Notes under the pieces: model-generated | The model's input: only the letters and a program-made list of their open reading frames with translations | Database searches by the model: none | Told to the model about the DNA's origin: nothing | Part shown: positions 25,067 through 62,960 of the stretch, piece by piece | Layout of the letters: each line of letters begins with the position of its first letter | Numbering within the stretch: the stretch's first letter is position 1 | From: Candidatus Obscuribacterales bacterium | GTDB taxonomy: Bacteria > Cyanobacteriota > Vampirovibrionia > Obscuribacterales > Obscuribacteraceae | Assembly (NCBI GenBank): GCA_020050685.1 | Contig: JAGVKG010000044.1 | Span: forward strand, 1 to 64,000 | DNA length: 64,000 nt | Direction: 5' to 3' | Program-made: the position numbers and the translations under genes

Positions 25067-28000
25067 ATGCCGGTAGATTCATCCCACAAAACGCAAGAGA
25101 GCTTTGCGCCTACTTCCCTTAGTTGGGCGCATCCACTTGTGCAGGAATGGTTTGTCGGCAAATTTGGCACACCTACGGAACCACAAGAACAAGGTTGGCC
25201 GCACATACTTGCCGGCAAGACAACCTTGATTTCTGCTCCGACCGGATCAGGAAAAACACTGGCTGCATTTCTTGCTTGTATCGACAAACTTGTGTGTCAA
25301 GCTGTCGAAAACAAGCTTGGTGATAAAACTGAAGTCCTTTACGTCTCGCCTTTAAAAGCCTTGAGCAATGACGTGCAGAAAAATTTGGAAGTCCCACTTG
25401 CCGAAATTTCCGCGCTAGCAAAATCGCACGGCATCGAGATGGCCGAAATTCGTACGGCTGTGCGAACCGGTGACACGCTGATGCAAGAGCGGCTATCTAT
25501 GCTTAAGCGCCCACCACATATTTTGGTCACCACTCCCGAATCACTCTACATTTTAGTAACTGCCGGCAAGAGTCGCCAAATGCTTGCCAGTGTGCAAACG
25601 GTAATTGTGGATGAAATTCACGCCGTTGCCGATGATAAACGTGGCGCACACTTATCATTGTCTCTCGAACGATTGACCGCCCTTGTGCATCATCCGCTGA
25701 CTCGCATCGGATTATCAGCAACGCAAAAACCAATCGAACTGGTTGCAGAATTTCTGCGCGGCAGTTCAGAAGAACCGGCAATTGTACAAATTGGCCACAA
25801 GCGCAAAATGGATATTCAAATTGAAGTGCCACCAAGCCCATTGGGTGCAGTTGCAACGAATGAAATGTGGGATGAGATTTACGATCGCATTGCCGCACTA
25901 GCGCTTGAACACAAATCTACTCTTGTCTTTGTTAATACTAGACGTTTGGCGGAACGATTGGCGCTTCATCTTGCAGAACGATTGGGAGAAGATCAAGTGG
26001 CATGCCACCACGGCAGTTTGTCACGCAAGCTTCGTCATTCAGCGGAACACAAGCTGAAAACAGGTGAATTGCGACTTCTTGTTGCCACAGCATCACTTGA
26101 ACTCGGTATTGATATTGGTGATGTGGAATTGGTTTGTCAAATCGGCTCCCCGCGAGCAATTGCAGTTGCCTTGCAACGCATCGGCCGATCCGGACACTGG
26201 CGCGGAGCCATACCTAAAGGGCGTCTCTTTGCCACGACAAGAGATGAAGTTATTGAGTGTGCCGCTTGCGTGCACGCCATTAAGCAAGGCGAGCTGGATA
26301 AAATCATCATGCCGGAAGCACCGCTTGATGTTCTAGCGCAGCAGATAGTTGCCTGTTCTGCCACCAACGAATGGCAAGAAGACGAATTATTCAGGCTTGT
26401 AACCAGCGCTCACCCGTATCGCCAATTACATCGGCAATCATTTGATGCCATATTGCAAATGCTTACCGATGGGTTTCAAGGACGCAAGGTCCAATTTGGC
26501 TCTTATCTGCATCGCGATCGAATTAATTCGCGCGTCAAAGGAAAACGCGGTGCGGCGCTGGCAGCCATCACCAATGGTGGCGCGATTCCGGAAACTGCCT
26601 TATTTGCCGTGGTCGTCGAGCCAGATGGAAAAAATATCGGCACGCTGGATGAGGACTTTGCGATTGAAAGCAATCGCGGCGATATCTTTTTATTAGGCAA
26701 TACATCCTGGCGAATTAAAAGGGTGGAAAGTTTTTCCGGTCGCGTGTTAGTTGAAGATGCTCATGGTGCGCCACCAACTGTGCCATTCTGGCGGGGCGAA
26801 GCACCCTCGCGCACAAGTGAACTTTCCAACTATGTGGCCCGTGTTCGCGAGCACGTAAGTAATATGCTTGTCGAAATTAGCCTAATTGAAATGTGGCAAG
26901 ATTTGCCGGAAGTCAAACGCGCTGTCAATTGGCTACAAGAAGAATGTGGTCTGTCCGAAAGCGCTGGTGAGCAGGTTATCGAATACATTCTTGCAGGCCG
27001 GGCAATTCTTGGTGATGTACCCACACAAAAGACGATCATTGCTGAGCGATTCTTTGATGAAAGTGGTGGCATGCAATTGGTTATTCATGCACCATTCGGT
27101 GGAAGAATAAACAAAGCTTGGGGACTGGCACTAAGAAAAAGATTTTGCGTTGGCTTCAATTTGGAATTGCAAGCAGCCGCTACCGATGATGGTATCAATA
27201 TTGCTCTTTCCGATCAGCATAGCTTTCCTTTGGCTGATGTTTTCCTCTTTCTCAATCAAGCAACCGTCAAAGAAGTATTAGAACAAGCGGCGCTGGTTTC
27301 ACCAATTTTTACTTCCCGCTGGCGCTGGGATACTACACGCTCGCTTTCCATTTTGCGCTTTAGTGGTGGCAAAAAAGTACCACCGCAAATTCAACGCATG
27401 CGAGCTGAGGATTTATTAGCTTGTGTATTTCCTCAAGCTGCCGCCTGTCAGGACAATATCGAAGGCGACATAGAAATTCCCAGCCATCCGCTAGTTGATG
27501 AAGTTATGAAAGATGTCTTTCAAGAAGCAATGGATCTGGAAGGTCTAAAGAGCGTTTTGAATGATATTGCTACAGGCGCTATCAAAATAATTGCCATTGA
27601 TACACCAACGCCTTCCGTGTTTTCTCAAGAAATTCTCAATGCCAATCCATATGCATTTTTAGATGATGCTCCTTTAGAAGAACGTCGAGCTCGGGCTGTA
27701 GAAATGCGCCGAATGCTGCCACAAAATATTCTGGAAGAGTTTGGTCAATTAGATCCTGATGCAATTGACCAAGTTATTTCCGAAGCTTTTCCAGACATTC
27801 GCGATACTGATGAATTGCATGATTTACTCTCGACTCTGATTGCCATGCCAACAGATCTTACTGATTTCTCGATTGGCAATTTCGGCAGTTGGCACCAACT
27901 GATACAAGGCAATTGGAATGACTTGTTTGCCAAATTGAAAACAGCCGGTCGTGTTGCCCAAGCCACTATCAATGACCATAACTATTGGCTTACCGCTGAG

Positions 28001-29488
28001 ACAAACAAAGCATTTTCAACAATTTTTCCTGGTGCAAGTTTTGATAGCATCATTCCTGATTTTGCCTCACCGTTTGCTTCCAGAGAAGAAGCAGTTTCCG
28101 CAATGCTCAAAGGTTGGTTAATGCACCTTGGTCCGGTTACTGCCAATGAACTAGCTTTGCTTCTTAGCTTACCGCTTGCCGACGTAGAACTTGGTTTGTT
28201 GAAATTAGAATCAGCCGGGACAATTTTGCGCGGACAGTTCCGCTTTCAACGAGCCAACCGAGTTGCAAGAGCAACAAACGAAAGCCAAGTAGAATCAGGC
28301 AGTGAATCAAATATAGAGTGGTGTGAGCGGCGGCTTTTGGCCCGCATTCACAAACTGACGGTTGGCACACTGCGGCGATCAATTGAGCCTGTGACCGCAG
28401 CCCAGTTTTTTGTCTGGCTGACACAGTGGCAACATGTGGCAAAAAACACGCAAGTAAACCAAGAGCGCGGGCTGCTCGAAGTGATCAAACAATTACAAGG
28501 CTTTGAAGCACCGGCAAATGCCTGGGAGCAAAGCATTCTCAAACACCGCGTATCGTCTTATAGCCGATTCGATTTGGACAGGCTCAGTCTCACTGGTGCA
28601 ATTGGTTGGGGCAGACTCTCCCCCCATCCTGCGACGATAAAACAAACGATTGCCGATCAGACCAAGAACGACACGAGGAACAACTTCAGGATCGAACAGC
28701 TCGATACGGTGCCAGATAAGCGCCGCAGAGTAATACCATCGAGCAATGCACCAATTGCATTTTTTGTACGCGATGATTGCCACTGGATGGTTCACAAAAA
28801 GAGACAAGACGAATTAGAAAACATCGATAGCATTTCTCATGCAGCAAAATTGATTTTCAAATTCATCAAGAAGCATGGTGCCTCATTTTTCCCGGACATC
28901 GTTCGGGCAACGAAATTGTTGAAAGCGGAAATTGAAAATGGTCTATGGGAATTGGTTGCAGCTGGTGCCGTGACTGCCGATGATTTTGACAATTTGCGAT
29001 CTCTTATTGATTCTAAAAGGCGTTACGGACTCGGACCGCGGCACAGTGGCGGACGATGGTCGTTGATTTTTTGCCACGAGGAAGAAGAAGCTGCAAATCG
29101 CTGGCAAGTTGCAGAAGCTGCCTCGTGGATGTTACTCAACAGATATGGTGTCGTATTCCGCGATCTCTTAGCACGCGAAACATGTGTTCCTAGTTGGCGC
29201 GAATTACTCACCGCCTTCCGTCGGCTGGAAGCACAAGGACAAGTGCGCGGTGGCAGATTTGTCGATGGATTTCTTGGAGAACAATTTGCTCTGCCATTTG
29301 CGGTTGAATCACTACGCTCAATGCGGAATAATCCCACCGTTGCGCAAGCAGCAAGTCAGGAAACAATCACAATTTCCGCAGCAGATCCGCTCAATCTAGT
29401 TGGCATACTAATTCCTGGCGAACGCATCTCACCATTGTCATCCAAATCAATCACCATCACCGGCGGCACAGTCGTCACTCATTTTTGA
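25067..29488 (+). CDS. lhr: Lhr-type DEAD/DEAH helicase
   Basis: The 1473-residue protein matches the length of long Lhr proteins (about 1500). It has Walker A SAPTGSGKTLAAF (near 56-64), motif II VDEIHAVADDKRGAHL (near 181), motif VI LQRIGRSGHWRG (near 370), the Lhr winged-helix and DEAD/H-associated core (to about 880), and a long C-terminal Lhr-CTD (about 900-1470). Lhr is a 3'-5' single-strand DNA translocase and helicase involved in DNA repair. It starts 45 bp after ftsY. Nothing in it looks broken. Confidence 0.92.
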   Translation: MPVDSSHKTQESFAPTSLSWAHPLVQEWFVGKFGTPTEPQEQGWPHILAGKTTLISAPTGSGKTLAAFLACIDKLVCQAVENKLGDKTEVLYVSPLKALSNDVQKNLEVPLAEISALAKSHGIEMAEIRTAVRTGDTLMQERLSMLKRPPHILVTTPESLYILVTAGKSRQMLASVQTVIVDEIHAVADDKRGAHLSLSLERLTALVHHPLTRIGLSATQKPIELVAEFLRGSSEEPAIVQIGHKRKMDIQIEVPPSPLGAVATNEMWDEIYDRIAALALEHKSTLVFVNTRRLAERLALHLAERLGEDQVACHHGSLSRKLRHSAEHKLKTGELRLLVATASLELGIDIGDVELVCQIGSPRAIAVALQRIGRSGHWRGAIPKGRLFATTRDEVIECAACVHAIKQGELDKIIMPEAPLDVLAQQIVACSATNEWQEDELFRLVTSAHPYRQLHRQSFDAILQMLTDGFQGRKVQFGSYLHRDRINSRVKGKRGAALAAITNGGAIPETALFAVVVEPDGKNIGTLDEDFAIESNRGDIFLLGNTSWRIKRVESFSGRVLVEDAHGAPPTVPFWRGEAPSRTSELSNYVARVREHVSNMLVEISLIEMWQDLPEVKRAVNWLQEECGLSESAGEQVIEYILAGRAILGDVPTQKTIIAERFFDESGGMQLVIHAPFGGRINKAWGLALRKRFCVGFNLELQAAATDDGINIALSDQHSFPLADVFLFLNQATVKEVLEQAALVSPIFTSRWRWDTTRSLSILRFSGGKKVPPQIQRMRAEDLLACVFPQAAACQDNIEGDIEIPSHPLVDEVMKDVFQEAMDLEGLKSVLNDIATGAIKIIAIDTPTPSVFSQEILNANPYAFLDDAPLEERRARAVEMRRMLPQNILEEFGQLDPDAIDQVISEAFPDIRDTDELHDLLSTLIAMPTDLTDFSIGNFGSWHQLIQGNWNDLFAKLKTAGRVAQATINDHNYWLTAETNKAFSTIFPGASFDSIIPDFASPFASREEAVSAMLKGWLMHLGPVTANELALLLSLPLADVELGLLKLESAGTILRGQFRFQRANRVARATNESQVESGSESNIEWCERRLLARIHKLTVGTLRRSIEPVTAAQFFVWLTQWQHVAKNTQVNQERGLLEVIKQLQGFEAPANAWEQSILKHRVSSYSRFDLDRLSLTGAIGWGRLSPHPATIKQTIADQTKNDTRNNFRIEQLDTVPDKRRRVIPSSNAPIAFFVRDDCHWMVHKKRQDELENIDSISHAAKLIFKFIKKHGASFFPDIVRATKLLKAEIENGLWELVAAGAVTADDFDNLRSLIDSKRRYGLGPRHSGGRWSLIFCHEEEEAANRWQVAEAASWMLLNRYGVVFRDLLARETCVPSWRELLTAFRRLEAQGQVRGGRFVDGFLGEQFALPFAVESLRSMRNNPTVAQAASQETITISAADPLNLVGILIPGERISPLSSKSITITGGTVVTHF

Positions 29489-29700: not shown

Positions 29701-32700
29701 GTGAATATTATGCATTCAAGCGGTCTAGTCGGACTCTCGTCGATGACGCGGAGATTCTTGTCGGTAGTACTGATAATCTCTTGTGTCTTGATGACAAATT
29801 ATTTCCCGCTTGCCGCCCAAGCGGGTGAATTCGCCAACCGAGACCGTGGCTCGGGAGCAATCCCCTCAGGTCAATCGCCTGCTGCCGGTGGTGGCTGGAA
29901 CGCTAGAACCGAAGCTAATGTGCCGCAAAGCACTCAGTCCACATTTAATGTTCTCGATTTCAGCACCAGACCGAACATGCGCGTGCCAAACAATTTGTTA
30001 AATCAGGGAACGCTTTATCTTATATCGACCAATCCGGAAATCAGCAATGCAACACTTATTGCTCGCAACATTCTTAACAAAACGGGTGCGACAATTACCA
30101 GCATTTTGCCTGCGGGAGGTCTGGAAGGCTATAGCAATGCGATCGACAATCTCAGCATTACGCTTGTCGCCCTGGGAAATGTGGTAAACAACGGCACAAT
30201 TTCCAGCGCAGGCTCTCTCACAGTTCTGGCTGGCGGCTCAATCACTAATGCTTTGCCTACCGGTGCGACTGCAGCGTCATCACCAACAATGCAAGCGGCA
30301 AACAATCTTAACTTGCTTGCCTCATCGATAAACAATCAAGGGACGTTGTCTGCAACAAACGGCAACGTAAATCTTGCCAATCCGGCCATGTACTCTTCTA
30401 TGTACACTAGCGCATACTCGGCATTTCTTTCCACTTTGGTTGCATCCGAATCTGCTAATTGGACGCTAGCAAGTAATTTGCAGAATGTCGTAAGTATCAA
30501 TAACCTTTTTGGTTCGATTGAAGCCTTAAACGGATCGGTGAACATTGGTGGCGAAGAGTTTGGCTCAGATGCATTGCTATCCGTTTTGGGTGGTCACGTC
30601 AACGCTCGCGAGATAAATCTGAACGGTGGCAGCGGCTTGGTGCAAGGCATGCTAGATGGCGCTACAGGACTGCTAAACGTTTCGGCCGGTTCTGCCCACT
30701 TCGGTACAGCATCGGGCGTCTTGAATTTAGGCAATCTCAAACTAGATGGCGATCCAACATTTTTCAATAACCTTGGCGATATTAGCATCCAGGGCAACAT
30801 AACTGTTGCAGAGAATTTAGCCATTCTGGCAAGCGGTAATATCACAGCCAATGGCACATACTTAATTTCTGCACGAGACGGTACCGGACAAGGACGTAAC
30901 ATTTACTTGGTTGCCGGCGCAACACTTCTTCCCAGTGCCGGTGCCCAGCCTGTGAATTCATTCAATCCGCTTGGCCCGTCGATCACCGGCAACCAGACAG
31001 TTAAAGTTGCCGGCCCGTCACTTACTGGTGGCAGTATTTCACTAAACGACACGACGTTAGATTCTAGTGCTGCCAATAACAAATCTGGTGGCACAGTCAC
31101 TTTGGTGGCATTCGGCGGGCTTGGTACTGGTGGCATTGAGAAGGTGATTATTCAAACTGCGGGAAACGGCACTGGTGCAAATGGTGCAGTAAATGTAATT
31201 GCCGGCGGCACCCTGGCAGCAATTAATCCGATGGTCGATCCAAATACTGCTATAAATTCGGTCAGCATCAGCGCAGTTGGCGGAGGCAGCACTTCTGTCT
31301 ATGCGCCCGTAAATGTATCTGCAGCCACGCCGGGAAACACGGTAGTCACCTTTAGTAGCACTGGCACGGCCACAGGTTCGTTTTCCGTAGGCGCACCGAC
31401 AACCCGAGACATTTTAGTCAATTCTCCGATTTGGACGGAAAGTGGCGATATTGGCATTTTAACTAATGGTATGGTTTCTAGTACACAGATGATCAATTCA
31501 GGTGGCTTCAGCCCCGGACGCGACGGTGGCAACATCACCGTAATTGCCAAAACTATAGTCATAGGCGCACTAGTCGAAGCCAGCGGCACCAATGGAGCAA
31601 ATGGCGCGGGTAGTATTGCTCCAACGGCTGGCGGCAAAGGACAAAATGGTGGCTCTGGTGGCATGGTATCACTTTCTGGCAGCGATGGAATTACGATTAA
31701 TGCAAACGTTTTGGCCAATGGTGCCAATGGTGGTAATGGTGGCACTGGCGGGGGCGGTGCCCCTCAGAAAGTCGGTGCCGCTGGTGGGCTTGGTGGCAAC
31801 GGTGGCATGGCTGGGTCCATTTCACTTGAAACAAAAGATTTCTTCATAACCCAAGATGCCTTCACAATGTCTGCCAATGGCGGATCAGCTGGCAACGGTG
31901 GAAATGGTGGCACTGGCGGCTCGGGTAACAATGGTGGCGCCGGTGGTGCCGGTGGAATTGCAGGTTCCGCCGGTGGTGGCGGCATGATCATGACAAAATC
32001 CGGCAATGGCGCACTGACACTCAATGGATCTTTAATGGTCAATGGTGGCAATGGTGCAAATGGTGGCGCCGGCGGTGATGGCGGTGATGGCATGCTCCTG
32101 AATGGCGGAGATGGCGGACCAAGCGGCTTTTCATCCGGTGGTGGCTCGGGCGGCCTAATTAATTTGAGTACTGGCGCTGGGAACATTATATTGAACGCTC
32201 TCAGTTCAATTGGTGGAAACGGTGGACAATCAGGTAAAGGTGGCGACGGTGGATTAGGTGCTGCCGCCGGAGACGGAGGACGTGTCTCGAATGCAGGCCG
32301 TGGTGGTGACGGCGGTCGTATCACAATTGATTCTTTGACCGGCACACTGACATTTAATTCCGGTGTGGACCTGACTGGTGGCTTTGGTGCAGACCAAGTC
32401 GCCGTTTCCGGAACAGGTGGTGGTGGCACCACAGCCGGTGGCGATGCGGGCGCAGTTTTTGATGCAGGTTCCGGTGGTTCAGGCGGCGATATATCAGCCA
32501 TGGTCGGAGGAGCAATTACAGTCAACACCAGTATTAATGTCTTTGGTGGCACGGGTGGAGACATGACCTCAATTGCCGGCAATGGTGGACTTGGTGCCAA
32601 AGGTGGCATTGGTGGTTCTATAGGCAATGCCGGCGATGGTGGCAGAGGGGGTAGCATCTCGCTAACAAGCAAAAACGCAGCAGTCTCTGTGACAATTGCG

Positions 32701-35700
32701 CTTGATGCATCCGGTGGTGCAGGCGGCAATGTATCCGGAATTGGTGGCGAGGGGGGCTTTGGCTCAGCCAATGCTGGTGGCGCCGGTGGTGGCACTGGCT
32801 CAGGTGGAGATGGTGGCGATGGTGGCAGCATCAAACTTGAATCGGCTGCCGCACTATCTGTTACCAATAATCTTTCCGCCTATGGTGGCGCCGGTGGATC
32901 AGTTAGCGCGACGGCCGGCAATGGCGGAAATGGTTCCGGCAATTCCAAAGGTGGAGTTGGTGGCAGTCTAAACATTGCAGGCAGTGGTGGCTCAGGTGGT
33001 TCAGTCACGCTTATTGCCAAGGCAAACGTCGGTGTGTCGAACATCGACGCATCAGGTGGAGTTGGTGGTAACTTAACAGGTACGGCTGGCAATGGCGGCT
33101 TTGGTGCGATTGGTGCTGTGGGCGGCTCGCTAGGATTTGGCGTGAGTGGTGCTGGTGGCAAAGGCGGCATGCTGACAATTAAGACAACTCAGCTAGCACC
33201 AGGTCCAGGCACACTCACATTTGATGATTGCATCATCACTGTCGCTGGTGGTGACAATGGAGAATATTCTGCCACAGCCGGTGATGGTGGCGACGGTAGT
33301 AACGGTATTGGTGGCACGGGCGGTGCAGCCGGCAATCAGGGAGCCGGTGGTGACGGAGGCAAAGTCTTTTTAACCGGGTTGGATTTGACTGTCTCGCCAA
33401 CCGCATCTATTAGTGCTGCCGGCGGACATTCCATAGGCTTCTATGCAGTAGCCGGCAATGGTGGCAATGGTGGTGGCAACAATGGCGGTGGTGGTGATGG
33501 TGGCTCAGTCGGTTTTGCCGGTAATGGTGGCGGCGGCGGCATGATTCAAATGAGTATCGATAACACAGTCTTTATAGATAGCACCGGCGACGATTCAATT
33601 ACAGCCCGAGGCGGAGATGTCGGCAGTTATTTCTTTGTCACTCTGGTTAATGCAGCAATCAGTGGCACAGGTGGCAGTGGTTCCGGCAGCGGGCGCGGTG
33701 GTAATGGTGGCAACATTGGCAACAACGGTAGTGCCGGAGGCGGAGGATCAATTACCATAACCGGAAATGTCGGCAATATGACAGGCTTAGGCGTGCTTGT
33801 GGTGGCAGGTGGTCAAGTAAATGAAGTAAGCGCAAGTACGGGAGCAGGAGGTGCAGGTGGCACCACTGGCAATGGTGGCTTAAGCGGCAATATGGCCAAC
33901 AACGGCAATGGTGGCAAGGGTGGCAGCATCAAACTTTCCACCAGTTCCGGCAACATACTTCTAAGTACATTGATTGCACCGGGCGGCGATGTTTTTGGCA
34001 TCTTCAAACCGACCACCGGAGATGGTGGCGCAGGCGGTAGCGCAAAAGGCAATGGTGGTGCCAGCGGCAATATCGGCAACAACGGTATTGGCGGTGACGG
34101 CGGCCTGATTTCATTGATCAGTAAATTTGGCAATCTTGGACCAGTAGGTGTAGGTAACAGCGTAACTTACGTCGCTGCTGCCGGTATCGTTAAAGGCATG
34201 GCAGCCGAAACCGGCGCAGGCGGTAATGCAACCGGTACTTTGGCATTCGACGCCAATGGTGGCGCCAGCGGATCTATCGGAACCAATGGTGCAGGCGGCA
34301 ATGGTGGCAGTGTGATCATGAGCACGCAGCTCGGCAACATTCTCACCCCACGAGGCGGCATAATTTTAGCTGGTGGAGATGGTGGCATTGCAGGATCAAT
34401 TACTGGCGATGGCGGCTCCACAGATCATGGTAATGGTGGCATGAGTGGTTCGATCAAAAACAATTCCAGTGGTGGCAATGCCGGCAAGGCAGAATTGAAA
34501 TCACTCTCCGGCATGTTGACGATTCAGGGTGTAATTATTTTACGTGGCGGCTGGGCTTTGGGTAACCAAAATGAGACAGGCAATGGCGGATCATCCGCCG
34601 ATGGTAACGGCGGAAATAGTGGTTCAATATTAGCCGGTGGCAGTGGTGGCAAAGGTGGCACGCTTGTGATTGAAACCGGTCTGGATATTATGGGATCAGA
34701 AGCAATTACTGCCGACGGTGGTCATGCAGGAGCACAAGGTATCTGGGGACTCGATGGACTAATATCCACTGTTCCATTCCCATATGCACCGACAACCGGT
34801 AATGGTGGCGACGGATCATCTGATGGCACCGGAGGAAACACAGGCTCAATTGGTGAGGTTGGAAAAGGTGGTTTGGGTGGATCTGTTGAATTAACTTCTA
34901 AATTAGGCACCATAACTCCAGATCATATTTTTGCCAGTGGTGGCAGGGCCGGATCACTAGCGTTCACGACTGTACCGCCACTGCCAGTCGTTCTCATCCC
35001 GGCAGCATCCGGCAAGCAAGAAGGAGTGACCGGCGATGGTGGCACGGGCGGTTTGAAGGGCGGCAATGCTGGAAAAGTTGGCGACGGTGTCGTCGGTGGT
35101 GAAGGTGGAAAAATCACCTTGAAGGCAGGAACATCAATATTGCAATCGGTGGAGTACGATGCAAATGGTGGTCTTGGCGGCGAACAAGGCGGCATTGGTG
35201 GCACAGGTGGAAGCGCTGCAAATGGCACGGCAGGATTTGGCGGCTCAGTCGGCTCGGGTGGCAATGGTGGAAAAGCCGGGACCATTTCACTTGGTGCCGT
35301 AACTGGTGCTAACACGATCAAAGAACTATTTGCCTTTGGTGGCGATGGTGGAAAAAATTCAGGCGTTGGTGGCGCAGGAGGCATTGGCAAAATTGTCGGT
35401 GGTGCCGGCGGATCTATTGGCAGCTCCGGTACTGGTGGCAAAGGTGGCTTACTGCTTATTTCCATAGCCTTGGACAGTGGAAGTATGAGCACCGTCGGCA
35501 ACATGGGTAACCTTTTGCATGGTGGCAATGGTGGAGACATAACCGGAATGGGCGGCGCAGGCGGTAGCGTCAGCGGCGGATCAGCCATTGATGGTGTCGG
35601 TGGCGCTGGTGGTTCATGCGGTGCAGCCGGTGGCGGCGGAGATGGTGGTACAATTAAAGTTACCATGAACGGCGGCATTCTCACGCTAGGCGATAACATG

Positions 35701-37881
35701 AATGCCAATGGTGGCGACAGCGGCGCATACTTGGCCACAGGTGGTGCTGGTGCAGCTGGAACCAAAAACAAGCCAGGCGGAAAAGGTGGTGACGTAGGCA
35801 TTCAAGGTAGTGGTGGCGCCGGCGGTATCGTCTACATGGGCGTGGGCAGCTTGGTAGTTTCGCCCGGAATGTTATTAACTGCCGATGGTGGCTCGGCCAC
35901 AAATTATGAAGGCACCGGTGGCATTGGTGGCGCAGGTGGCGGCAAAGGCGGAGATGGTGGCAGTTCCGACATCTCAGGTGGTGGCGGTATCGGCGGAACT
36001 ATTACGGTTGAATCCGCAAATACTATTGGAGTCGAAGGCGGCATAACTGCCAATGGCGGTCATCGCAATGCGATTTTTGCTACCGCAGGAAAAGGAGGCA
36101 ACGCAGGCACCAATGGTGGCGGCGGCGGTGCCGGTGGTGGTATTGCTAAGGCCGGCACCGGAGGCCAAGGTGGTACGATAAAACTTACGAGCTTCTTTAG
36201 CGACGTTTCCGGCGCAGGAACAATTGGTGCTTTAGGCGGGAACGCAACCGCCAGCACAATGACCAGCGGTGCAGGTGGAAATGCCAACATCAAAGGTGAT
36301 GGCGGCACAGGCGGGACCATAGCTGGTGGCGCTGGTGGCGGCGATGGTGGCACAATTACAGTTAGCGTGCTGACAAACGTTTCAGGTCTGACATTTTCGC
36401 TTTTCGGCGGATCGGTTATAGGTACATTTACTGCTACAAGCGGTAAAGGTGGTAACGCCGGAGCTTCAGGCGGTGCCGGAGGCAAGGGCGGGTTAATTGC
36501 CGATAACGGATCAGCCGGTGGTGGCGGGGGTCTTGAACTGAAAAGTACGTCCGGCACAATTGAACCTGCCGCCATAATCGCATTTGGTGGCAATGTTGGC
36601 TCGATGACTGGAACCGGTGGCAACGGTGGCAATCAACCCGGCGGGCAAGGAGCTGGTGGCATGGGTGGTGCCGCCGGAAGCAATGGCAATGGTGGCATAG
36701 GCGGTACTATCTCAATAAAAACTGATGGCCCAGTAAATTCCACAGGCGATTGGGACGTCAGTGGAGGTTCAGTTGATGGCTACGGCGCCACGGGTGGCAA
36801 TGGTGGCACCGGTGGAGGAACTGGTCCTAGTTCCGGCGTTGGTGGAATGGGCGGCAAATTAGGCAACAATGGCAAAGCCGGCGACGGTGGCAACATCACT
36901 GTAATGGGCAAAAATGGAGCCCTAACTTTTGCTGGAGCTTTGCTTGCTGATGGTGGTGCTGTGCTTGCAGATTATACGGGCACATCCGGTAATGGTGCTA
37001 ATGCACCATTTGCTGCAGGTGATGCTGGAGATACCGGTAACAATGGAAGCGCAGGTGATGGTGGCATTATTAAACTCAGCGCTAAGGGTGGAACGATTAC
37101 AACCGACAAAATTTCTGCAATTGGTGGCGCGACATCCGATCAGAAAGGACATGGCGGAATTGGCGGTGAAGGCGGCGATCATGGTGGCATGGGCGGCACA
37201 GTTGCCGAAGGCACCGCCGGTGGTTCCGGTGGCACAATCAACCTTACCACTGGCAGTGGAGACATAACAATCAATGGTGACATTCTCGCGACCGGCAGCA
37301 CCGGAGGCGCTAATCATGGTATCGGTGGTGCAGGTGGTAACGGTGGCAGAAAGGGATTAGATGGTGGCACTGTAGCACCTGCGGGTAACGGTGGCGCTGG
37401 CGCTGCGGGCACCATAGGTCTTGACGCAAAGGGCGGCACAATTACAACCAGTGGACTGATTTCTGCCGATGGCGGAGCCGGAGGCGCTCAACATGGCATT
37501 GGTGGCGCCGGTGGCAACGGTGGTCCAACCAATTCTATTGGCGGTAATGGTGGCAATATCCGCCAGTCCGGAAACGGTGGTGCCGGCGGCACAGTCGTTC
37601 TGGATGCAGCTACTGATCTGCAAATAGTTTTAGCTAATGAGCCGACAGTCTTAGGCGGAGCCTTTGGTCTACAAGCAGGCGTTATCGGCGCGGCCGGATT
37701 CGGAAATCCGACAATGGGTAACCCTGGTGAGCCTGGCGCTAACGGTATACCAGGTATGGCCGGCAAAGTAATCAAAAACGGAGTGGTGCAAATTTCCTTA
37801 CCAGGAGATGCGAGCTATGAGTCGGAAGCCCAAGCAATTGTAGACACCGGAGAATATTTAGACGACTCAACAAATATCTAG
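29701..37881 (+). CDS. Giant secreted glycine-rich repeat protein (PGRS-like), 2726 aa
   Basis: It starts GTG 29701 with AGGGATAGG 9 bases upstream. A signal peptide (about 15-41, ending AAQA) directs export. Residues about 90-600 form a beta-helix-like module rich in N, S, T and short hydrophobic strands (INNQGTL, GNVNLAN, GDPTFFN), like the non-repetitive part of filamentous haemagglutinins. From about 630 to 2690 I count about 34 repeats of about 60 residues. Each has a strand pair of type GGxIxLxS...GxIxxxGGxx plus a Gly-rich linker such as GGNGGxGG. The end (ESEAQAIVDTGEYLDDSTNI) is acidic, with no LPxTG and no autotransporter barrel. The function is probably surface or matrix structure. 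It resembles PE-PGRS proteins in composition only. A paralogue lies at 54587-62737. Confidence 0.9.
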   Translation: MNIMHSSGLVGLSSMTRRFLSVVLIISCVLMTNYFPLAAQAGEFANRDRGSGAIPSGQSPAAGGGWNARTEANVPQSTQSTFNVLDFSTRPNMRVPNNLLNQGTLYLISTNPEISNATLIARNILNKTGATITSILPAGGLEGYSNAIDNLSITLVALGNVVNNGTISSAGSLTVLAGGSITNALPTGATAASSPTMQAANNLNLLASSINNQGTLSATNGNVNLANPAMYSSMYTSAYSAFLSTLVASESANWTLASNLQNVVSINNLFGSIEALNGSVNIGGEEFGSDALLSVLGGHVNAREINLNGGSGLVQGMLDGATGLLNVSAGSAHFGTASGVLNLGNLKLDGDPTFFNNLGDISIQGNITVAENLAILASGNITANGTYLISARDGTGQGRNIYLVAGATLLPSAGAQPVNSFNPLGPSITGNQTVKVAGPSLTGGSISLNDTTLDSSAANNKSGGTVTLVAFGGLGTGGIEKVIIQTAGNGTGANGAVNVIAGGTLAAINPMVDPNTAINSVSISAVGGGSTSVYAPVNVSAATPGNTVVTFSSTGTATGSFSVGAPTTRDILVNSPIWTESGDIGILTNGMVSSTQMINSGGFSPGRDGGNITVIAKTIVIGALVEASGTNGANGAGSIAPTAGGKGQNGGSGGMVSLSGSDGITINANVLANGANGGNGGTGGGGAPQKVGAAGGLGGNGGMAGSISLETKDFFITQDAFTMSANGGSAGNGGNGGTGGSGNNGGAGGAGGIAGSAGGGGMIMTKSGNGALTLNGSLMVNGGNGANGGAGGDGGDGMLLNGGDGGPSGFSSGGGSGGLINLSTGAGNIILNALSSIGGNGGQSGKGGDGGLGAAAGDGGRVSNAGRGGDGGRITIDSLTGTLTFNSGVDLTGGFGADQVAVSGTGGGGTTAGGDAGAVFDAGSGGSGGDISAMVGGAITVNTSINVFGGTGGDMTSIAGNGGLGAKGGIGGSIGNAGDGGRGGSISLTSKNAAVSVTIALDASGGAGGNVSGIGGEGGFGSANAGGAGGGTGSGGDGGDGGSIKLESAAALSVTNNLSAYGGAGGSVSATAGNGGNGSGNSKGGVGGSLNIAGSGGSGGSVTLIAKANVGVSNIDASGGVGGNLTGTAGNGGFGAIGAVGGSLGFGVSGAGGKGGMLTIKTTQLAPGPGTLTFDDCIITVAGGDNGEYSATAGDGGDGSNGIGGTGGAAGNQGAGGDGGKVFLTGLDLTVSPTASISAAGGHSIGFYAVAGNGGNGGGNNGGGGDGGSVGFAGNGGGGGMIQMSIDNTVFIDSTGDDSITARGGDVGSYFFVTLVNAAISGTGGSGSGSGRGGNGGNIGNNGSAGGGGSITITGNVGNMTGLGVLVVAGGQVNEVSASTGAGGAGGTTGNGGLSGNMANNGNGGKGGSIKLSTSSGNILLSTLIAPGGDVFGIFKPTTGDGGAGGSAKGNGGASGNIGNNGIGGDGGLISLISKFGNLGPVGVGNSVTYVAAAGIVKGMAAETGAGGNATGTLAFDANGGASGSIGTNGAGGNGGSVIMSTQLGNILTPRGGIILAGGDGGIAGSITGDGGSTDHGNGGMSGSIKNNSSGGNAGKAELKSLSGMLTIQGVIILRGGWALGNQNETGNGGSSADGNGGNSGSILAGGSGGKGGTLVIETGLDIMGSEAITADGGHAGAQGIWGLDGLISTVPFPYAPTTGNGGDGSSDGTGGNTGSIGEVGKGGLGGSVELTSKLGTITPDHIFASGGRAGSLAFTTVPPLPVVLIPAASGKQEGVTGDGGTGGLKGGNAGKVGDGVVGGEGGKITLKAGTSILQSVEYDANGGLGGEQGGIGGTGGSAANGTAGFGGSVGSGGNGGKAGTISLGAVTGANTIKELFAFGGDGGKNSGVGGAGGIGKIVGGAGGSIGSSGTGGKGGLLLISIALDSGSMSTVGNMGNLLHGGNGGDITGMGGAGGSVSGGSAIDGVGGAGGSCGAAGGGGDGGTIKVTMNGGILTLGDNMNANGGDSGAYLATGGAGAAGTKNKPGGKGGDVGIQGSGGAGGIVYMGVGSLVVSPGMLLTADGGSATNYEGTGGIGGAGGGKGGDGGSSDISGGGGIGGTITVESANTIGVEGGITANGGHRNAIFATAGKGGNAGTNGGGGGAGGGIAKAGTGGQGGTIKLTSFFSDVSGAGTIGALGGNATASTMTSGAGGNANIKGDGGTGGTIAGGAGGGDGGTITVSVLTNVSGLTFSLFGGSVIGTFTATSGKGGNAGASGGAGGKGGLIADNGSAGGGGGLELKSTSGTIEPAAIIAFGGNVGSMTGTGGNGGNQPGGQGAGGMGGAAGSNGNGGIGGTISIKTDGPVNSTGDWDVSGGSVDGYGATGGNGGTGGGTGPSSGVGGMGGKLGNNGKAGDGGNITVMGKNGALTFAGALLADGGAVLADYTGTSGNGANAPFAAGDAGDTGNNGSAGDGGIIKLSAKGGTITTDKISAIGGATSDQKGHGGIGGEGGDHGGMGGTVAEGTAGGSGGTINLTTGSGDITINGDILATGSTGGANHGIGGAGGNGGRKGLDGGTVAPAGNGGAGAAGTIGLDAKGGTITTSGLISADGGAGGAQHGIGGAGGNGGPTNSIGGNGGNIRQSGNGGAGGTVVLDAATDLQIVLANEPTVLGGAFGLQAGVIGAAGFGNPTMGNPGEPGANGIPGMAGKVIKNGVVQISLPGDASYESEAQAIVDTGEYLDDSTNI

Positions 37882-37904: not shown

Positions 37905-38036
37905 ATGGCACTAGAACCAACCTTTGATATTTGGCATGTTGGCTTTCCTGTTTCCAATCTGACCGTTTCGGTTCAATTTTACTGCAACCAACTTGGATTT
38001 AAACTGGTGGGTCAGGTATGGAAGAAGAAACTATAG
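37905..38036 (+). pseudogene. 5' fragment of a VOC/glyoxalase-family gene
   Basis: The 43-codon frame reads ALEPTFDIWHVGFPVSNL, then SVQFYCNQLGFKLVGQ, which is the first beta-alpha-beta unit of a vicinal-oxygen-chelate domain including the metal-side His. It then turns into VWKKKL and stops, while a normal VOC protein has 120 or more residues. AAGGAAC lies before the ATG. The break (about 38012-38030) falls where the minus-strand zorD gene ends, so the rest of the gene was probably lost when the island arrived. Confidence 0.72.
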
Positions 38037-41000
38037 ATGTTTGAATATGACTTCGGGAGTCATGCCCTGTTGTCCAGAAATGATCAACCTGTGGCCGGCA
38101 GCACTCATCCATTGTTGATCATTTGACGAAAGCTTACTAGCATTTGTTATGCCGATCTTCCAGACATTGCCCGCGCAGCTATAACTTGTTGTAGCGCGTT
38201 CTAGGTCGGCACTAATTTCCGGTGCTTTGCTTGAAGTGCTTACATGTTTGCATTGAACTACAGCAGTTATGAGTCCTTCTATAGTTTCGATTATCATATC
38301 CGCACCACCATCCCAAGAGGCGGGTGTAGAACGTACGCGATAACCAAAAGATGAGCCAAGCTTTGCAAGCTTGTGAAGAACGTGCTCTTCAAATTGTGTT
38401 CCGCTAAACAGATAACTGTCAGCTAGAGTCCAGCTTGTAGATGAGCCAACATTGAGTCCTTTTTGGATCAGCTCATCGGCTATATCATCAGTTTCTGGGA
38501 GAGCGATAAGGGTCTTATCTCTCAACTTTCGCTTATTTTCCAGGACGTTATGTAGAAGAACGTCAAAACATTGTTCGGGAAGATCCGGATGAATAGCAAG
38601 CGGATAATGAATGAAGACCGGGCGATGCTGTCCGATGCGATAAATTCTGTCGGTTGCTTGATCCTCAACGGCTGGGTTCCACCATCTGGTCAGGTGAATA
38701 ACGTGGTTGGCAGCTGTCAATGTAAGTCCAACACCTCCGGCCTTTGGTGAAATTAGCATGACGTCAAATTTGCCGGTTTCCTGCTGGAATGCGTCAACTC
38801 TCTTTTGTCGGGCAGAAGTACCGATCTGCCCATTGATTACCAGTGGCAAGGAGTCAAGAGAATAACGGCGCCGAAGTATTGCTGGCAGGAAGTCGGGTCT
38901 GTGCCAATCGTTGTATTCGATAAAAATGAGAGCCTTTTCCTGCCTTTTGTGAATCTCATCCAGAATACTAAAGCAAGCTCTTAAGCGCGCCGAAGCATTA
39001 ATGAAATCACTGTCACGCCATTGTTTGTTTTCTCGTTTGTAGTCAGGGTGAAGAGAACAGGCGCGGAGTTTCTGCAGTGCCTGCAACATCGCTCCCCGTT
39101 GTTTTTCAGTGTTGCTTGTGACACTTTCGATAATATTCTTGTATATGGCCGCCTGCTCTGAGAGCATAAATTCTTTGTGGACCTTCAAATGCTTTTCTGG
39201 CAGTCCTGGAAGTTGTTCGTGCTTCAATCTCCGAAGCATGAAAGCTGGCCCAGAAGTGGGATGGATCAGTCCTTCCTGTAAGTCCAGCATACGTTGTTGT
39301 GCGCTCTCTTTACCATCAAGGATAGCCTTTTCATATTTATTGCTAAATTCCTTTATGGTTCCGAGCATTCCTGGCTGAAGAACGTCCGTGATTGACCATA
39401 GGTCAGCTAGTCTATTTTCAATCGGTGTTCCGGTCATGCCAATCCAGAAATCCGCATTGACGCCGCTAGCTGCTCCATAGTTCTGGGTACCAGGATTTTT
39501 TAACTTCTGTGTTTCATCGAACACTACTGCCGCAAACGTTACAGTGTTGAAACTGGTTTGATAGCGAGTCAAGGTTTCATATGTGGTGAGCACAAGTCCG
39601 GCCCTGTTCAAGCGAGTTGTATTTAAGTTTGATCCGGTCTGGAGAGCTCTTAGGTCAGATCCATATACGCGCACAAGTTGTCCTAGATCATTTGTTAAAT
39701 GGCGCTCAATTTCTGCTTCCCAGTTTTTAAGAAGACCGGTTGGTGCAACGATTAGGAGTGGTTTCTCTGTAATTTCAGCGTTCTCCATCCCTTCACGCAG
39801 CCATGAGAGGAACATCAAAGATTGATACGTTTTTCCTAGACCCATGTCGTCAGCCAATAGTAGTCCACGCGATCCGGTGCGGTAGTGATCGCACAACCAA
39901 TGATAGGCTTCAATTTGGTGAGGTTTGGGATTGGTGCGCAGGCGATCCGGGAGTCCTGTATTGGAAGGGATGTTGGATCGGTTGGTGCGAGGAACAAAAA
40001 ATTCTAGAGTATCAAGGTTTTCCTTGACAAGCATAACGGGTCGTGGAGTGGCTGGTTGACGCTTAGGTGAAGATGGAGATTGATAATTATCTGGCTTGAT
40101 CGGAATGTCGCGAAAGACTTCACCAATAGCTCCGAGCGTGTCAGAGGTGGCTGGAACAGTATGACCAGAGTGTGTGACAGTGGGATTACCCTGAGATATA
40201 GCTGACTGAACTTTTTTAATTAGCTCCTTTGCACCTTGTGTAGAGAGGGAGATCTTCTCGTTGTCGATACAAATCCCACGCTTTGCTTCAGGCAACTTTC
40301 CGTTGGGCAACCATTCCTGGGGTCGCATTTGGATCCAAGGAATTACCTTAGATTGCCATTCGCCTATTCCTATAACACGGTCAGAAAAGACATTATTCAG
40401 TTCGTCTTCATCTAGCATTCCATCCAGGTAAGCTGAGAATGCTGCTTTTGGATTCTTTAAGAAAGCACTTCTGGCTGAAGCATTGGCATGTTGTATCCTA
40501 TGAACATATTCTAGAGTTCGATTTAGCTTGTCGCTCAAAATTAAGTATTTGCCAACACCGATGCTGTAATGAGGAAGAAGTGTGGTGCTGTCGGAGAAGT
40601 ATTTTGCATATCTTTCTTGTTCAGCGGGCGGGAGTACGTTTTCAAATACTCGACTGTCGTTGTTATCATTCTCTAAGCGTTGCCTTAGAAGTATTGGGCG
40701 AATGGTGAAGCTTTCATCATCTGGAACGGCTTCAAGACGGAACGAATCAGCATAATACAACTTCAGACTAGCCAGATCTGAAGACTGTCGGATCCGCCTT
40801 TGCTCTTCCGAAGGGAGCATAGACAGGAGTCGTTGAAATTCGGCTAGTTGGGTCAGTCTCTCAGAGAACTGGTTTTCTTTATCCAGTGCCTCTTTGAGGT
40901 CGTCCAGATGATTGGCCATTTGATATGCATGATTTGGCAGCCAAAATCGGCGATTACCTACAAGTAATATTGCGCCTCTCCGCTCTGCTTGAACCGGGCG

Positions 41001-41414
41001 AGTTCCGCTCAACCAATTGTAGGTGAGTCGAAATGAATTGCTATGCAATAGCCCGTGGCCTTTTATTTCCAAGCCACCTTCGAAAAGACGTGGCAGCTCA
41101 AGGATGCGATGTAAGTAGTTCTCTTGTCCTTCAAAGAGCGTCATCAGATAGTACATTGAGAATTGGACTGAGTTGTTGTTCTTGTTGATCACGCCTTCAG
41201 TTTCTGGTGACTCGTTTGCTAGATCTATCAGCCATGAAGCACCTTCATGATTCTGACCGGTCCACTCGGAAAGAGGCAGAACTGTTTCATTAGCATCCAG
41301 AAGGGCGAATGAGAGAAACCATTGGTTGTCGACTCGTACTTCCTGAACCTGTAGGCTTGATTGTGTCTTTGTTGTTAGAGTAACACTAGGAGTTTCTTTA
41401 GATGCGATAATCAC
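38031..41414 (-). CDS. zorD: Zorya type I protein ZorD: SNF2-family helicase with Mrr-like nuclease domain
   Basis: The 1127-residue protein has an N-terminal region without recognised motifs (about 1-490). An SNF2 ATPase follows with DDMGLGKT (near 525), DETQ box FDETQKLKNPG (near 634), MTGTPIENR, and motifs V-VI SPKAGGVGLTLT and DRIYRIGQHRP (near 925). The C-terminal domain (about 1010-1127) has GTQFEEHVLHKLAKLG, WDGGADMII and VVQCKH (near 1054), the D-x-QxK pattern of Mrr-type PD-(D/E)xK nucleases. In Zorya, ZorD is the DNA-processing effector. The GTG at 41414 overlaps zorC by 17 bases and has GAGGA upstream. Confidence 0.88.
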   Translation of the reverse strand: MIIASKETPSVTLTTKTQSSLQVQEVRVDNQWFLSFALLDANETVLPLSEWTGQNHEGASWLIDLANESPETEGVINKNNNSVQFSMYYLMTLFEGQENYLHRILELPRLFEGGLEIKGHGLLHSNSFRLTYNWLSGTRPVQAERRGAILLVGNRRFWLPNHAYQMANHLDDLKEALDKENQFSERLTQLAEFQRLLSMLPSEEQRRIRQSSDLASLKLYYADSFRLEAVPDDESFTIRPILLRQRLENDNNDSRVFENVLPPAEQERYAKYFSDSTTLLPHYSIGVGKYLILSDKLNRTLEYVHRIQHANASARSAFLKNPKAAFSAYLDGMLDEDELNNVFSDRVIGIGEWQSKVIPWIQMRPQEWLPNGKLPEAKRGICIDNEKISLSTQGAKELIKKVQSAISQGNPTVTHSGHTVPATSDTLGAIGEVFRDIPIKPDNYQSPSSPKRQPATPRPVMLVKENLDTLEFFVPRTNRSNIPSNTGLPDRLRTNPKPHQIEAYHWLCDHYRTGSRGLLLADDMGLGKTYQSLMFLSWLREGMENAEITEKPLLIVAPTGLLKNWEAEIERHLTNDLGQLVRVYGSDLRALQTGSNLNTTRLNRAGLVLTTYETLTRYQTSFNTVTFAAVVFDETQKLKNPGTQNYGAASGVNADFWIGMTGTPIENRLADLWSITDVLQPGMLGTIKEFSNKYEKAILDGKESAQQRMLDLQEGLIHPTSGPAFMLRRLKHEQLPGLPEKHLKVHKEFMLSEQAAIYKNIIESVTSNTEKQRGAMLQALQKLRACSLHPDYKRENKQWRDSDFINASARLRACFSILDEIHKRQEKALIFIEYNDWHRPDFLPAILRRRYSLDSLPLVINGQIGTSARQKRVDAFQQETGKFDVMLISPKAGGVGLTLTAANHVIHLTRWWNPAVEDQATDRIYRIGQHRPVFIHYPLAIHPDLPEQCFDVLLHNVLENKRKLRDKTLIALPETDDIADELIQKGLNVGSSTSWTLADSYLFSGTQFEEHVLHKLAKLGSSFGYRVRSTPASWDGGADMIIETIEGLITAVVQCKHVSTSSKAPEISADLERATTSYSCAGNVWKIGITNASKLSSNDQQWMSAAGHRLIISGQQGMTPEVIFKHL

Positions 41415-42825
41415 GTTCTTGTATCCTCACTCCAGTTTCGTTGTATATAAAAGTTGACAATTGGTTTTGCCACCAATAAGTATCGCTAGACTGGTGGCTT
41501 ATGCCGTCTTGCTGATGATGTTCGACAATGTGTATTGATTTTCTTACGAGGTCACTGCGAGTGTAGCTGAGTTCGTACAATTTGGGAGCATTCTTGTTCC
41601 CATCTTTCCATGCTCGGCACTTGCCTTGATGACTCCATTCGGCAACAATAAGATCCCCAATTCTCATTAAAAGAACGCTCTGCTCGTCCGTCGCACCATC
41701 AAGTTGTGCAGCTGTAAGTTTTCCGGAAAATGCCCTGCGTGCAAAACGTGATGCTGCCGGTCCGAGGGCTACCCAAGCATCACTCAATAGTTCCTTGTCA
41801 TAGTAAGCCTTCCAAAATGCCTTGCGATATTCCCATTGGCGCTCCAATGCTAATTCATCTATGATGGAGAAAAATTGGTTTAGCGTTTCGCCAGTAAGCC
41901 ACCGATAGACCACCCGTAATTCTCTATCACCAACTCCTCTCCAACCATCGTTGCGATGTTTTGGCAGTCGAGGATCGCCAAAGCGTTTCAATAGCCACGA
42001 TTGAACATCAAGTTTTGTACTTGTTGGTGGTGAGTCCTTGCCTGTAAGCCAGGGTGCCAGATGGAACTGTATCAATTGTACGCGCTGGTTTGGAAACCGT
42101 AGGTTCCCGTCGTCCGTAAGATGATAAGAACGAACGGATTCGATGACGTTGTCCTGAGCAAATTGATTGGTATGAAACATTTCAAAGCCAACAGCTTCGG
42201 CGTAACCAACTTGGGATAATTCACCCTGTAGACCCGTCATATCGGCAAAGTGCTTCCGATTAGATTGGGCTTTATAGAAGTAGGCGGAGACCGCCTTGTG
42301 CGTTGAGAACTGCTCTGAAAAGAGGTCAAAGGATTCATCGCGCTTTCTCCAGCCCTGGAGGCGGTGTGCGAGCAACTCATCCTGAAAGGCACCCCTTATT
42401 GCACGTGAGAGTTTCTTGTATACATGTCTGCAATCGCTGTGATGATTGAAACCACGAAGATAGACAAAGATTAAGTGCCGCCAGTTGGATGCGAGCGGAT
42501 TGGCGTTTAGCCAGTTCAGATATTTATCAACGAAAAGTTCTTCATTGGGCAGGGGCTGTTTAGACCAAAACAGATATGGTGCCCATTTCCAGTCACGCTG
42601 AGTGATATCCTGCCAGTCATTGCTGGCAATAGCATCACGAAATTTGTGATCAATTACCTGCAAATCAAAGTGAGCGGGCTCCTTGGACGGTGCTGCAAGC
42701 TTAGAAGCGATTTGCTCTGCGACAGCAGCAATGTTCGGAACGTGTCTAAGCTTGGGTTTCACCTTTCGAAGGTGAAACTGTCCAATACGATCTTTTAGTA
42801 GCGCGGTTCTATGATGCTGCTGCAT
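41398..42825 (-). CDS. zorC: Zorya type I protein ZorC (EH-signature family)
   Basis: The 475-residue soluble protein has no catalytic motif I can name. It is rich in Trp, His and Arg (HLIFVYLRGFNHHSDCRH; WRGVGDRELRVVYRWLTG). Its place between MotB-like zorB and SNF2-type zorD, with 17-base overlaps on both sides, and its size identify it as ZorC. ZorC is required in type I Zorya and thought to work with DNA near the motor complex. The identification rests on context more than on residues. Confidence 0.8.
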   Translation of the reverse strand: MQQHHRTALLKDRIGQFHLRKVKPKLRHVPNIAAVAEQIASKLAAPSKEPAHFDLQVIDHKFRDAIASNDWQDITQRDWKWAPYLFWSKQPLPNEELFVDKYLNWLNANPLASNWRHLIFVYLRGFNHHSDCRHVYKKLSRAIRGAFQDELLAHRLQGWRKRDESFDLFSEQFSTHKAVSAYFYKAQSNRKHFADMTGLQGELSQVGYAEAVGFEMFHTNQFAQDNVIESVRSYHLTDDGNLRFPNQRVQLIQFHLAPWLTGKDSPPTSTKLDVQSWLLKRFGDPRLPKHRNDGWRGVGDRELRVVYRWLTGETLNQFFSIIDELALERQWEYRKAFWKAYYDKELLSDAWVALGPAASRFARRAFSGKLTAAQLDGATDEQSVLLMRIGDLIVAEWSHQGKCRAWKDGNKNAPKLYELSYTRSDLVRKSIHIVEHHQQDGISHQSSDTYWWQNQLSTFIYNETGVRIQERDYRI

Positions 42826-43555
42826 GTTTGATACGAGTGACGTCCTCCGGAGCTGGTGAACGCATAATAAAACGCAAATCGATTCTGCGATTTTGCCTCA
42901 GATTTGTATCGCTAACTGGTCTGCGGGATTCATAACCACTGACACCAAGTACGGGCACATTCTGGCTGTTCATGATTCCCCGATCTAGTACAGGTCTGGT
43001 GGCAATAAGTTCGCGAAATACCGTAATGGCACGGCGAGCTGACAGTCCCCAATTGTCATAACCGGTATCACTACCTATATGATCCGTGTGTCCTTCAATA
43101 AGAACAGCTTCGAGGTTCCCTTTGCTCTTAAGGTGCAGGCAATCGCACTTGGTCTGAAGTTGCTTATCTGCAATTCCAAGACAAGGTAAATAACTGGCTA
43201 GCACGTGAGCCAATTTTTGCAAAGCTATCTTCCCCTGCGAATTAACTTGGTCACTTCCGAGATCGAATAGGATGCTCTCCGGCAGCCGCAAAATGCCCTG
43301 TTCAAGATCGAGCTCGACTTGGACTCCTGATTCTTTAAGTGACCTGCTCATTTCTTGAAGGACAGCATTTCTGGACTCGATCATCTTTGTAATAGACTCC
43401 GTGGCTTGACGGCTTTGATTCTGCTGGCTTTGAAAATTTGTTGCTACCAAAACAAGCAAAATGATGAAAATGAAGAGTATCCCAACAAGCATGTCAGTAA
43501 ACGAGGCAAAGTAGCTGTCATCCTGAGTGTCTACTAGTGAAGAATTACTTATCAT
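42809..43555 (-). CDS. zorB: Zorya protein ZorB: MotB-like, OmpA/peptidoglycan-binding domain
   Basis: The 248-residue protein has a short cytoplasmic start and one membrane helix with the channel Asp: SFTDMLVGILFIFIILLVLV (D21), the residue equivalent to the MotB ion-pathway Asp. A periplasmic OmpA-like domain follows: FDLGSDQVNSQGK, VLIEGHTDHIGSD, LSARRAITVFREL and RQNRRIDLRF. This anchors the complex to peptidoglycan. The start lies 4 bp after the zorA stop. Confidence 0.92.
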   Translation of the reverse strand: MISNSSLVDTQDDSYFASFTDMLVGILFIFIILLVLVATNFQSQQNQSRQATESITKMIESRNAVLQEMSRSLKESGVQVELDLEQGILRLPESILFDLGSDQVNSQGKIALQKLAHVLASYLPCLGIADKQLQTKCDCLHLKSKGNLEAVLIEGHTDHIGSDTGYDNWGLSARRAITVFRELIATRPVLDRGIMNSQNVPVLGVSGYESRRPVSDTNLRQNRRIDLRFIMRSPAPEDVTRIKHAAAS

Positions 43556-43559
43556 CTAA

Positions 43560-62737: not shown

Positions 62738-62855
62738 AACAAATTCCCTCCGCCAACCCATATAACAAAAGGCTTGCCAAATCCAAGTTGGCATCGCCCA
62801 GCCAGTTTTTTGATTCCCAAACATTGTTAAAAATACTAATACTAAGGCCCCACTA

Positions 62856-62867
62856 ATTATAGTTATA
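62856..62867 (-). promoter_or_regulatory. Possible -10 boxes of giant gene 2
   Basis: On the minus strand an extended -10 TGCTATAAC is followed at once by TATAAT. Both lie about 120 bases upstream of GTG 62737. They suggest a leader of about 110 bases. No matching -35 was found. Confidence 0.4.
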
Positions 62868-62960
62868 GCAAAGATGAGGGTTGTCCGGGAATTTGAAATC
62901 TTGTTGAAATAAAATCTGAGAGCAAAGCAGGAAATTTTGCCAACCACATGAGATCATTGA

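Follow-up and report, generated by a model that had tools for sequence, protein, structure and literature searches.

A giant glycine-rich repeat protein of Candidatus Obscuribacterales, probably a surface beta-solenoid, and its family of predicted exported siblings

We analysed the gene of a giant repetitive protein and its surroundings on a stretch of 64,000 nucleotides (hereafter the window; positions 1 to 64,000 of contig JAGVKG010000044.1, assembly GCA_020050685.1). The host genome is a 4.2 Mb draft of 70 contigs with 98.7% completeness, and the host is a non-photosynthetic member of the cyanobacterial phylum, Candidatus Obscuribacterales. The features of the window considered here were the following:

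25067-29488, forward strand: Lhr-type large helicase, just upstream of the giant gene
29701-37881, forward strand: giant protein gene, one uninterrupted reading frame of 2,726 aa
29743-29823, forward strand: Sec-type signal peptide by sequence, MTRRFLSVVLIISCVLMTNYFPLAAQA followed by GEF (residues 15-41)
29941-31590, forward strand: N-terminal solenoid region (about residues 81-630), common to paralogs and overlapping the first array unit
31516-37767, forward strand: array of 34-35 units of about 59 aa each (residues 606-2689), delimited by periodicity and unit profile
35635-37059, forward strand: eight-unit stretch used for structure modelling (residues 1979-2453)
37768-37878, forward strand: C-terminal end with the acidic tail IVDTGEYLDDSTNI (residues 2690-2726), the motif running from 37837
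37905-38036, forward strand: 43-residue N-terminal glyoxalase/VOC fragment (PF00903, E=8.9e-5), between the stop of the giant and the end of zorD
38031-41414, reverse strand: ZorD
41398-42825, reverse strand: ZorC
42809-43555, reverse strand: ZorB
43560-45455, reverse strand: ZorA
52911-54212, forward strand: serpin (PF00079, E=2e-88), between the Zorya system and the second giant
54587-62947, reverse strand: second giant family member of 2,786 aa, with the same N-terminal solenoid, a coil period of 27-29 and the C-terminus HGPYRRTGI

The giant gene is listed with a GTG start, and the ATG at 29743 (residue 15) is a more natural start for the signal peptide. The protein had no match among the Pfam, NCBIfam and PHROGs models searched, sequence searches of the PDB returned nothing usable and the plasmid search gave no match. 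Three antisense proline-rich ORFs (31764-32867, 34923-35801 and 36060-36632, reverse strand) are shadows of the GGN-rich coding strand and no genes. The context of the gene is not conserved, its neighbourhood differing from that of the relatives examined. Directly downstream lies a complete type I Zorya defence system (38031-45455, reverse strand), and the adjoining glyoxalase/VOC fragment, as read from the sequence, suggests a rearrangement breakpoint at a defence-island site. The upstream helicase scored 1,362 bits against the PADLOC model for DpdJ, a match that is probably strong because both are Lhr-like.

Periodicity was assessed over residues 630-2690, where the first-pass annotation had described about 34 repeats of about 60 residues. 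The FFT peaked at 58.9 aa, and BLOSUM autocorrelation had its maxima at lags 59 and 57 (z of about 10 against shuffles), the sole lag above these being lag 3, i.e. the GGX triplet. A profile of the unit, whose consensus is GGKGGTITLSSKTGTITVAGAITAAGGAVGAYTGTGGAGGNGGGTGAGGAGGSIGNNGSGGD, placed contiguous units over residues 606-2689, 35 of them at a loose cut-off and 34 at a domain E<0.01, so that both the number and the period of the repeats were confirmed. Glycine makes up 34% of residues 630-2690. This content and the GGX triplets, together with the polyglycine-II packing that is probable here and has been proposed for the sandwiches of PGRS proteins (PMC9436101, PMC10216338), would agree with a glycine-rich protein of the PGRS type, akin to mycobacterial PE_PGRS, and the protein had indeed been called PGRS-like. 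The label did not survive, as no Pfam or NCBIfam family was matched, a Sec-type signal stands in place of the PE domain, regular beta-strand units lie between the glycine stretches and the host belongs to the unrelated cyanobacterial phylum; we hold kinship with PE_PGRS to be extremely improbable.

Between units, mean identity was 44% at the protein level and 51% at the DNA level. At conserved four-fold codons, third positions agreed between units in 39% of cases, against 31% by chance and composition; the units are near saturation at synonymous sites, and the divergence formerly reported at the DNA level is thus borne out. A full-length ortholog occurs in another Obscuribacterales genus (G028:C74), with 47% identity to residues 8-2707. 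Units 9-24 or so of the window protein, i.e. most of the array middle, find their best-matching ortholog units in the same order, and the two arrays appear largely or partly collinear on this basis. Given an ortholog at 47% and partial collinearity despite near-saturated synonymous sites, we infer that the array arose before these genera diverged and was retained, in line with the earlier view of it as old and maintained. Long arrays of the glycine-spaced unit also occur elsewhere in the order (genomes G026, G028 and G034, and contig JAIELX010000074).

The ortholog comparison also bears on non-functional low-complexity drift, in which a glycine-rich frame would simply be kept open by composition. 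The high glycine content, a strong GC skew across the gene and the proline-rich antisense ORFs found as shadows would all be compatible with drift, but a full-length ortholog with partly collinear units at near-saturated synonymous sites refutes it, and a confidently predicted fold as well as conserved signal peptide and tail argue in the same direction, leaving this explanation a negligible probability.

The eight-unit stretch was modelled with AlphaFold2 from a 31-row alignment (A1), in which stretches of this and related proteins recur out of register; this could bias the model towards regular stacking. Secondary structure was predicted with high confidence, the model having a pLDDT of 96.2 and a pTM of 0.90. 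The stacking of strands supposed in the first-pass annotation was recovered, but each unit has three to four short beta-strands, not a single pair. The model also contains long stretches without regular DSSP assignment, whose pLDDT is yet mostly above 90, the glycine linkers being as confident as the strands. As disorder would score low, and as polyglycine-II presents itself to DSSP in just this way, these linkers are read as polyglycine-II-like and not as disordered, and polyglycine-II packing is plausible.

When the model was compared with solved structures using Foldseek, the top two matches were springtail antifreeze chains, the first being the polyproline-II-type bundle 7jjv (E=1.2e-3, probability 0.60, TMq 0.08, i.e. 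a weak match), and the snow flea antifreeze protein was also among the matches. The next ranks were occupied by right-handed beta-helix proteins, including adhesins (e.g. alginate lyases, PfbA and antigen 43), and a search of BFVD gave weak beta-helix and collagen-like matches. Since no E-value lay below 0.001 and TM-scores were low, assignment of the fold class depends chiefly on AlphaFold2. The earlier proposal of polyglycine-II-like linkers accordingly holds as far as their confident placement and the polyproline-II type of the best solved match go, the match itself being weak, and a beta-solenoid with polyglycine-II fins is what confident local structure and weak neighbours together would suggest.

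The antifreeze matches bring up an ice-binding protein or ice adhesin with polyglycine-II faces. In their case the resemblance probably reflects polyglycine-II geometry only, and there is neither a demonstrated flat, regular face for binding ice nor any link of the organism to cold, which makes this alternative very unlikely. With regard to dimensions, 34 units at 0.48 nm per solenoid coil would extend over about 16-33 nm, to which the N-terminal head is to be added; on the model, the array is probably a rod, and the long fibre previously envisaged is probably overstated.

The N-terminal solenoid of about 530 residues is shared by about 36 ORFs of this genome (profile A2). After removal of one duplicated entry, the family sums to about 137,000 residues and about 410 kb, i.e. 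about 10% of the 4.2-Mb genome. Its largest member reaches 14,495 aa (G000:C34:129561-173045), and another one, which runs off its contig, has at least 14,113 aa (G000:C1:86693-129031); both are very large for bacterial ORFs. The window protein has the traits by which the family is defined here, i.e. the N-terminal solenoid, a Sec-type signal and one of two C-terminal classes, and it is the only member found in this genome with 59-residue glycine-spaced units. The coil period is 28-31 residues in many siblings versus 57-59 in the window protein; the latter being about twice the former, the unit may correspond either to a single coil into which a glycine hairpin is inserted or to a pair of coils of which one is glycine-rich. 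In the search of relatives, the N-terminal family was present in 24 of 60 genomes (this one included), all from the same family or order, and a phylum-wide sample of 291 further genomes gave matches, all weak, in only 4.

Export and anchoring had both been left unexplained. For export, a Sec-type signal peptide is present, and a similar N-terminus was seen in 36 of the 37 family ORF entries by a hydropathy scan, which is no dedicated predictor. By eye, an [FW]xxR-type motif follows the signal peptide in many siblings (e.g. AQFRERR and AGPFRDSR, with GEFANRDRG in the window protein) and seldom in other genera. The corresponding automated count, based on a crude placement of the cleavage site, was weak (11/35 in this genome versus 3/31 in relatives), and the motif is no more than a lead.

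The N-terminal model (AlphaFold2, residues 41-705) had a pLDDT of 83, mostly above 85 in the solenoid region, and a pTM of 0.83, and its best structural neighbours, all weak, were two-partner-secretion (TPS) exoproteins, i.e. hemopexin-binding protein (E=0.18) and the secretion domain of EtpA (E=0.61). These neighbours, and a long beta-helix behind a Sec-type signal, would fit a TPS exoprotein of the filamentous-hemagglutinin type, exported by Sec and then through a TpsB pore of the Omp85 family, dedicated to it and recognising it by its N-terminal domain. The likeness to the TPS (haemagglutination activity) domain is however structural alone and weak, the N-terminal region having no Pfam match to it at E<0.1. 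Neither POTRA_2 over the cut-off nor an Omp85 domain was found in this genome; ShlB was also without a match here, in a search whose control gave no match either. Within this family and order, POTRA_2 matches once per genome, and in the genomes compared that match falls inside a BamA-like POTRA run, so that no dedicated TpsB is seen even where giants are abundant. Neither genus nor family thus yielded a TpsB-type candidate for the outer-membrane step, this genome being a draft that also lacks BamA, probably through a gap, and the TPS explanation appears rather unlikely. Nor was there a Pfam match to the C-terminal 12-strand beta-barrel of a classical autotransporter (type Va), the protein ending after the array in its acidic tail.

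BamA and LpxC were not detected in this draft, although they are present in 23 of 25 and 19 of 21 genomes of the respective searches. In several relatives, about 3 kb separates the two genes. A loss of the outer membrane was considered and not adopted, because one assembly gap could explain both absences and fabZ-lpxA is present in this genome (L145:8015-9365); the missing BamA and LpxC are probably due to such a gap.

The C-terminus revealed a conserved feature that the first-pass annotation had missed. The acidic tail (I/V)(V/I)DTG(D/E), termed class B, terminates the window protein and about 22 other ORFs. Searched as a DNA pattern, the motif matched this genome 18 times and the reversed pattern did so once, and all motif matches examined sit at ORF ends. 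A looser form, searched in 2.2 Mb of the genome, lay at most 35 residues from an ORF end in 25 of 28 cases (23 distinct ones without overlaps). One occurrence is a 96-residue ORF just downstream of another family member. No VDTG tail was found in the family ORFs from other genera, most of which are incomplete, and the tail had no match to a known sorting signal.

Seven siblings in this genome, including the second giant of the window, carry instead a class A C-terminus, in which a region that is FecR-like by eye, with no Pfam match, precedes a conserved helical-looking end with HG(P/A/V)(Y/F) or a variant of it. Of the family ORFs obtained from other genomes, 11 come to an end within their locus; class A was also found in 7 of these, and the remaining four, all short, may be fragments. 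The ortholog and other relatives end in a conserved C-terminal region of about 160 residues, and the window protein and its closest ortholog thus combine one kind of array with two different C-terminal modules. Truncation of the window protein, i.e. loss of this region, was rejected, as most siblings end in the same VDTG tail, and so was the DTG of the tail as an aspartic-protease active site, there being no room for a protease domain. We tentatively put forward the (I/V)(V/I)DTG(D/E) tail as a candidate for a new lineage C-terminal sorting or assembly signal, possible but doubtful, which would serve an outer-membrane translocation or anchoring machine; such a machine would handle proteins of up to 14,500 residues that Sec has exported, no dedicated TpsB being involved. 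A companion motif after the signal peptide may exist.

The giant is probably a repetitive surface beta-solenoid, with the conserved acidic tail as the chief new lead. We favour, with a probability of roughly 0.6, a Sec-exported rigid surface stalk or adhesin, made of a beta-solenoid with a glycine fin and belonging to about 36 siblings. The Sec signal would carry the protein across the inner membrane, and the N-terminal 530 residues or so, predicted to fold as an irregular beta-helix, would be the common head of the family. The 34 or so units, predicted with high confidence, would be stacked turns, with groups of three to four short strands separated by glycine-rich stretches, and the latter may pack as short polyglycine-II-like helices, resulting in a rigid rod with a glycine fin. 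A stiff stalk or adhesin at the surface is suggested by an exported rigid rod with a variable array and about 36 paralogs of very different lengths, which would have diversified in length and composition; no known adhesin or ligand-binding domain was recognised in the giant. More speculatively, the acidic tail probably marks the proteins for envelope retention, processing or assembly.

If the predicted fold is right, this repeat type has beta-solenoid turns that regularly alternate with polyglycine-II-like helices, and its unit, simple and to all appearances very stable, would lend itself to building protein fibres. Of greater weight is the wider finding: about a tenth of the genome of an uncultured, non-photosynthetic branch of the cyanobacterial phylum is devoted to a single family of about 36 predicted exported giants of up to 14,495 residues. 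How such chains cross the envelope and are attached to it is a concrete question, for which the shared tail provides a testable handle.

No paper on Obscuribacterales and glycine-rich proteins was found in the literature searched, most subscription journals lying outside its coverage, and the text of a survey of huge proteins (PMC11573180) mentions neither cyanobacteria nor Obscuribacter. Among known systems, TPS exoproteins (HxuA, EtpA) share with the giant a Sec signal, a long beta-helix and a size typical of surface or secreted adhesin-like proteins, and are the best, though weak, neighbours of its N-terminal region. The giant differs from them by having no N-terminal Pfam match and no TpsB detected in its genus or family, and its glycine-spaced units and VDTG tail are not known in TPS exoproteins.

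PE_PGRS proteins resemble the giant in GGX triplets predicted to adopt polyglycine-II packing and in forming a large paralog family (PMC9436101, PMC10216338); PE and PPE genes together occupy about 10% of the M. tuberculosis genome (PMC9436101). As regards the polyglycine-II sandwich typical of PE_PGRS, the linkers of the giant are confidently placed and polyproline-II bundles are their nearest (weak) neighbours, but they are interleaved with beta-strands. The giant further departs from PE_PGRS by the lack of a PE domain, Sec export, strand units alternating with glycine and an unrelated phylum. The springtail and snow flea antifreeze proteins (PDB 7jjv and 3bog), which gave the best, weak, solved matches to the unit model, likewise have glycine-rich helices in bundles, but they are small and purely helical, whereas the giant would alternate glycine stretches with beta-strands in a solenoid.

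In scale and layout, a good analogue is provided by Giant1-5 of Apilactobacillus kunkeei, extracellular proteins of 3,000-8,000 aa with a signal peptide that account for 6% of the genome (PMC12863079). Giant1-4 have an N-terminal beta-solenoid, and the proteins have long internal repeats and a conserved C-terminal segment (PMC12863079). They differ from the Obscuribacterales family in belonging to a lactic acid bacterium, in their mostly alpha-helical repeats (Giant1-3), in having no glycine fins and in being encoded by five to six genes against about 36.
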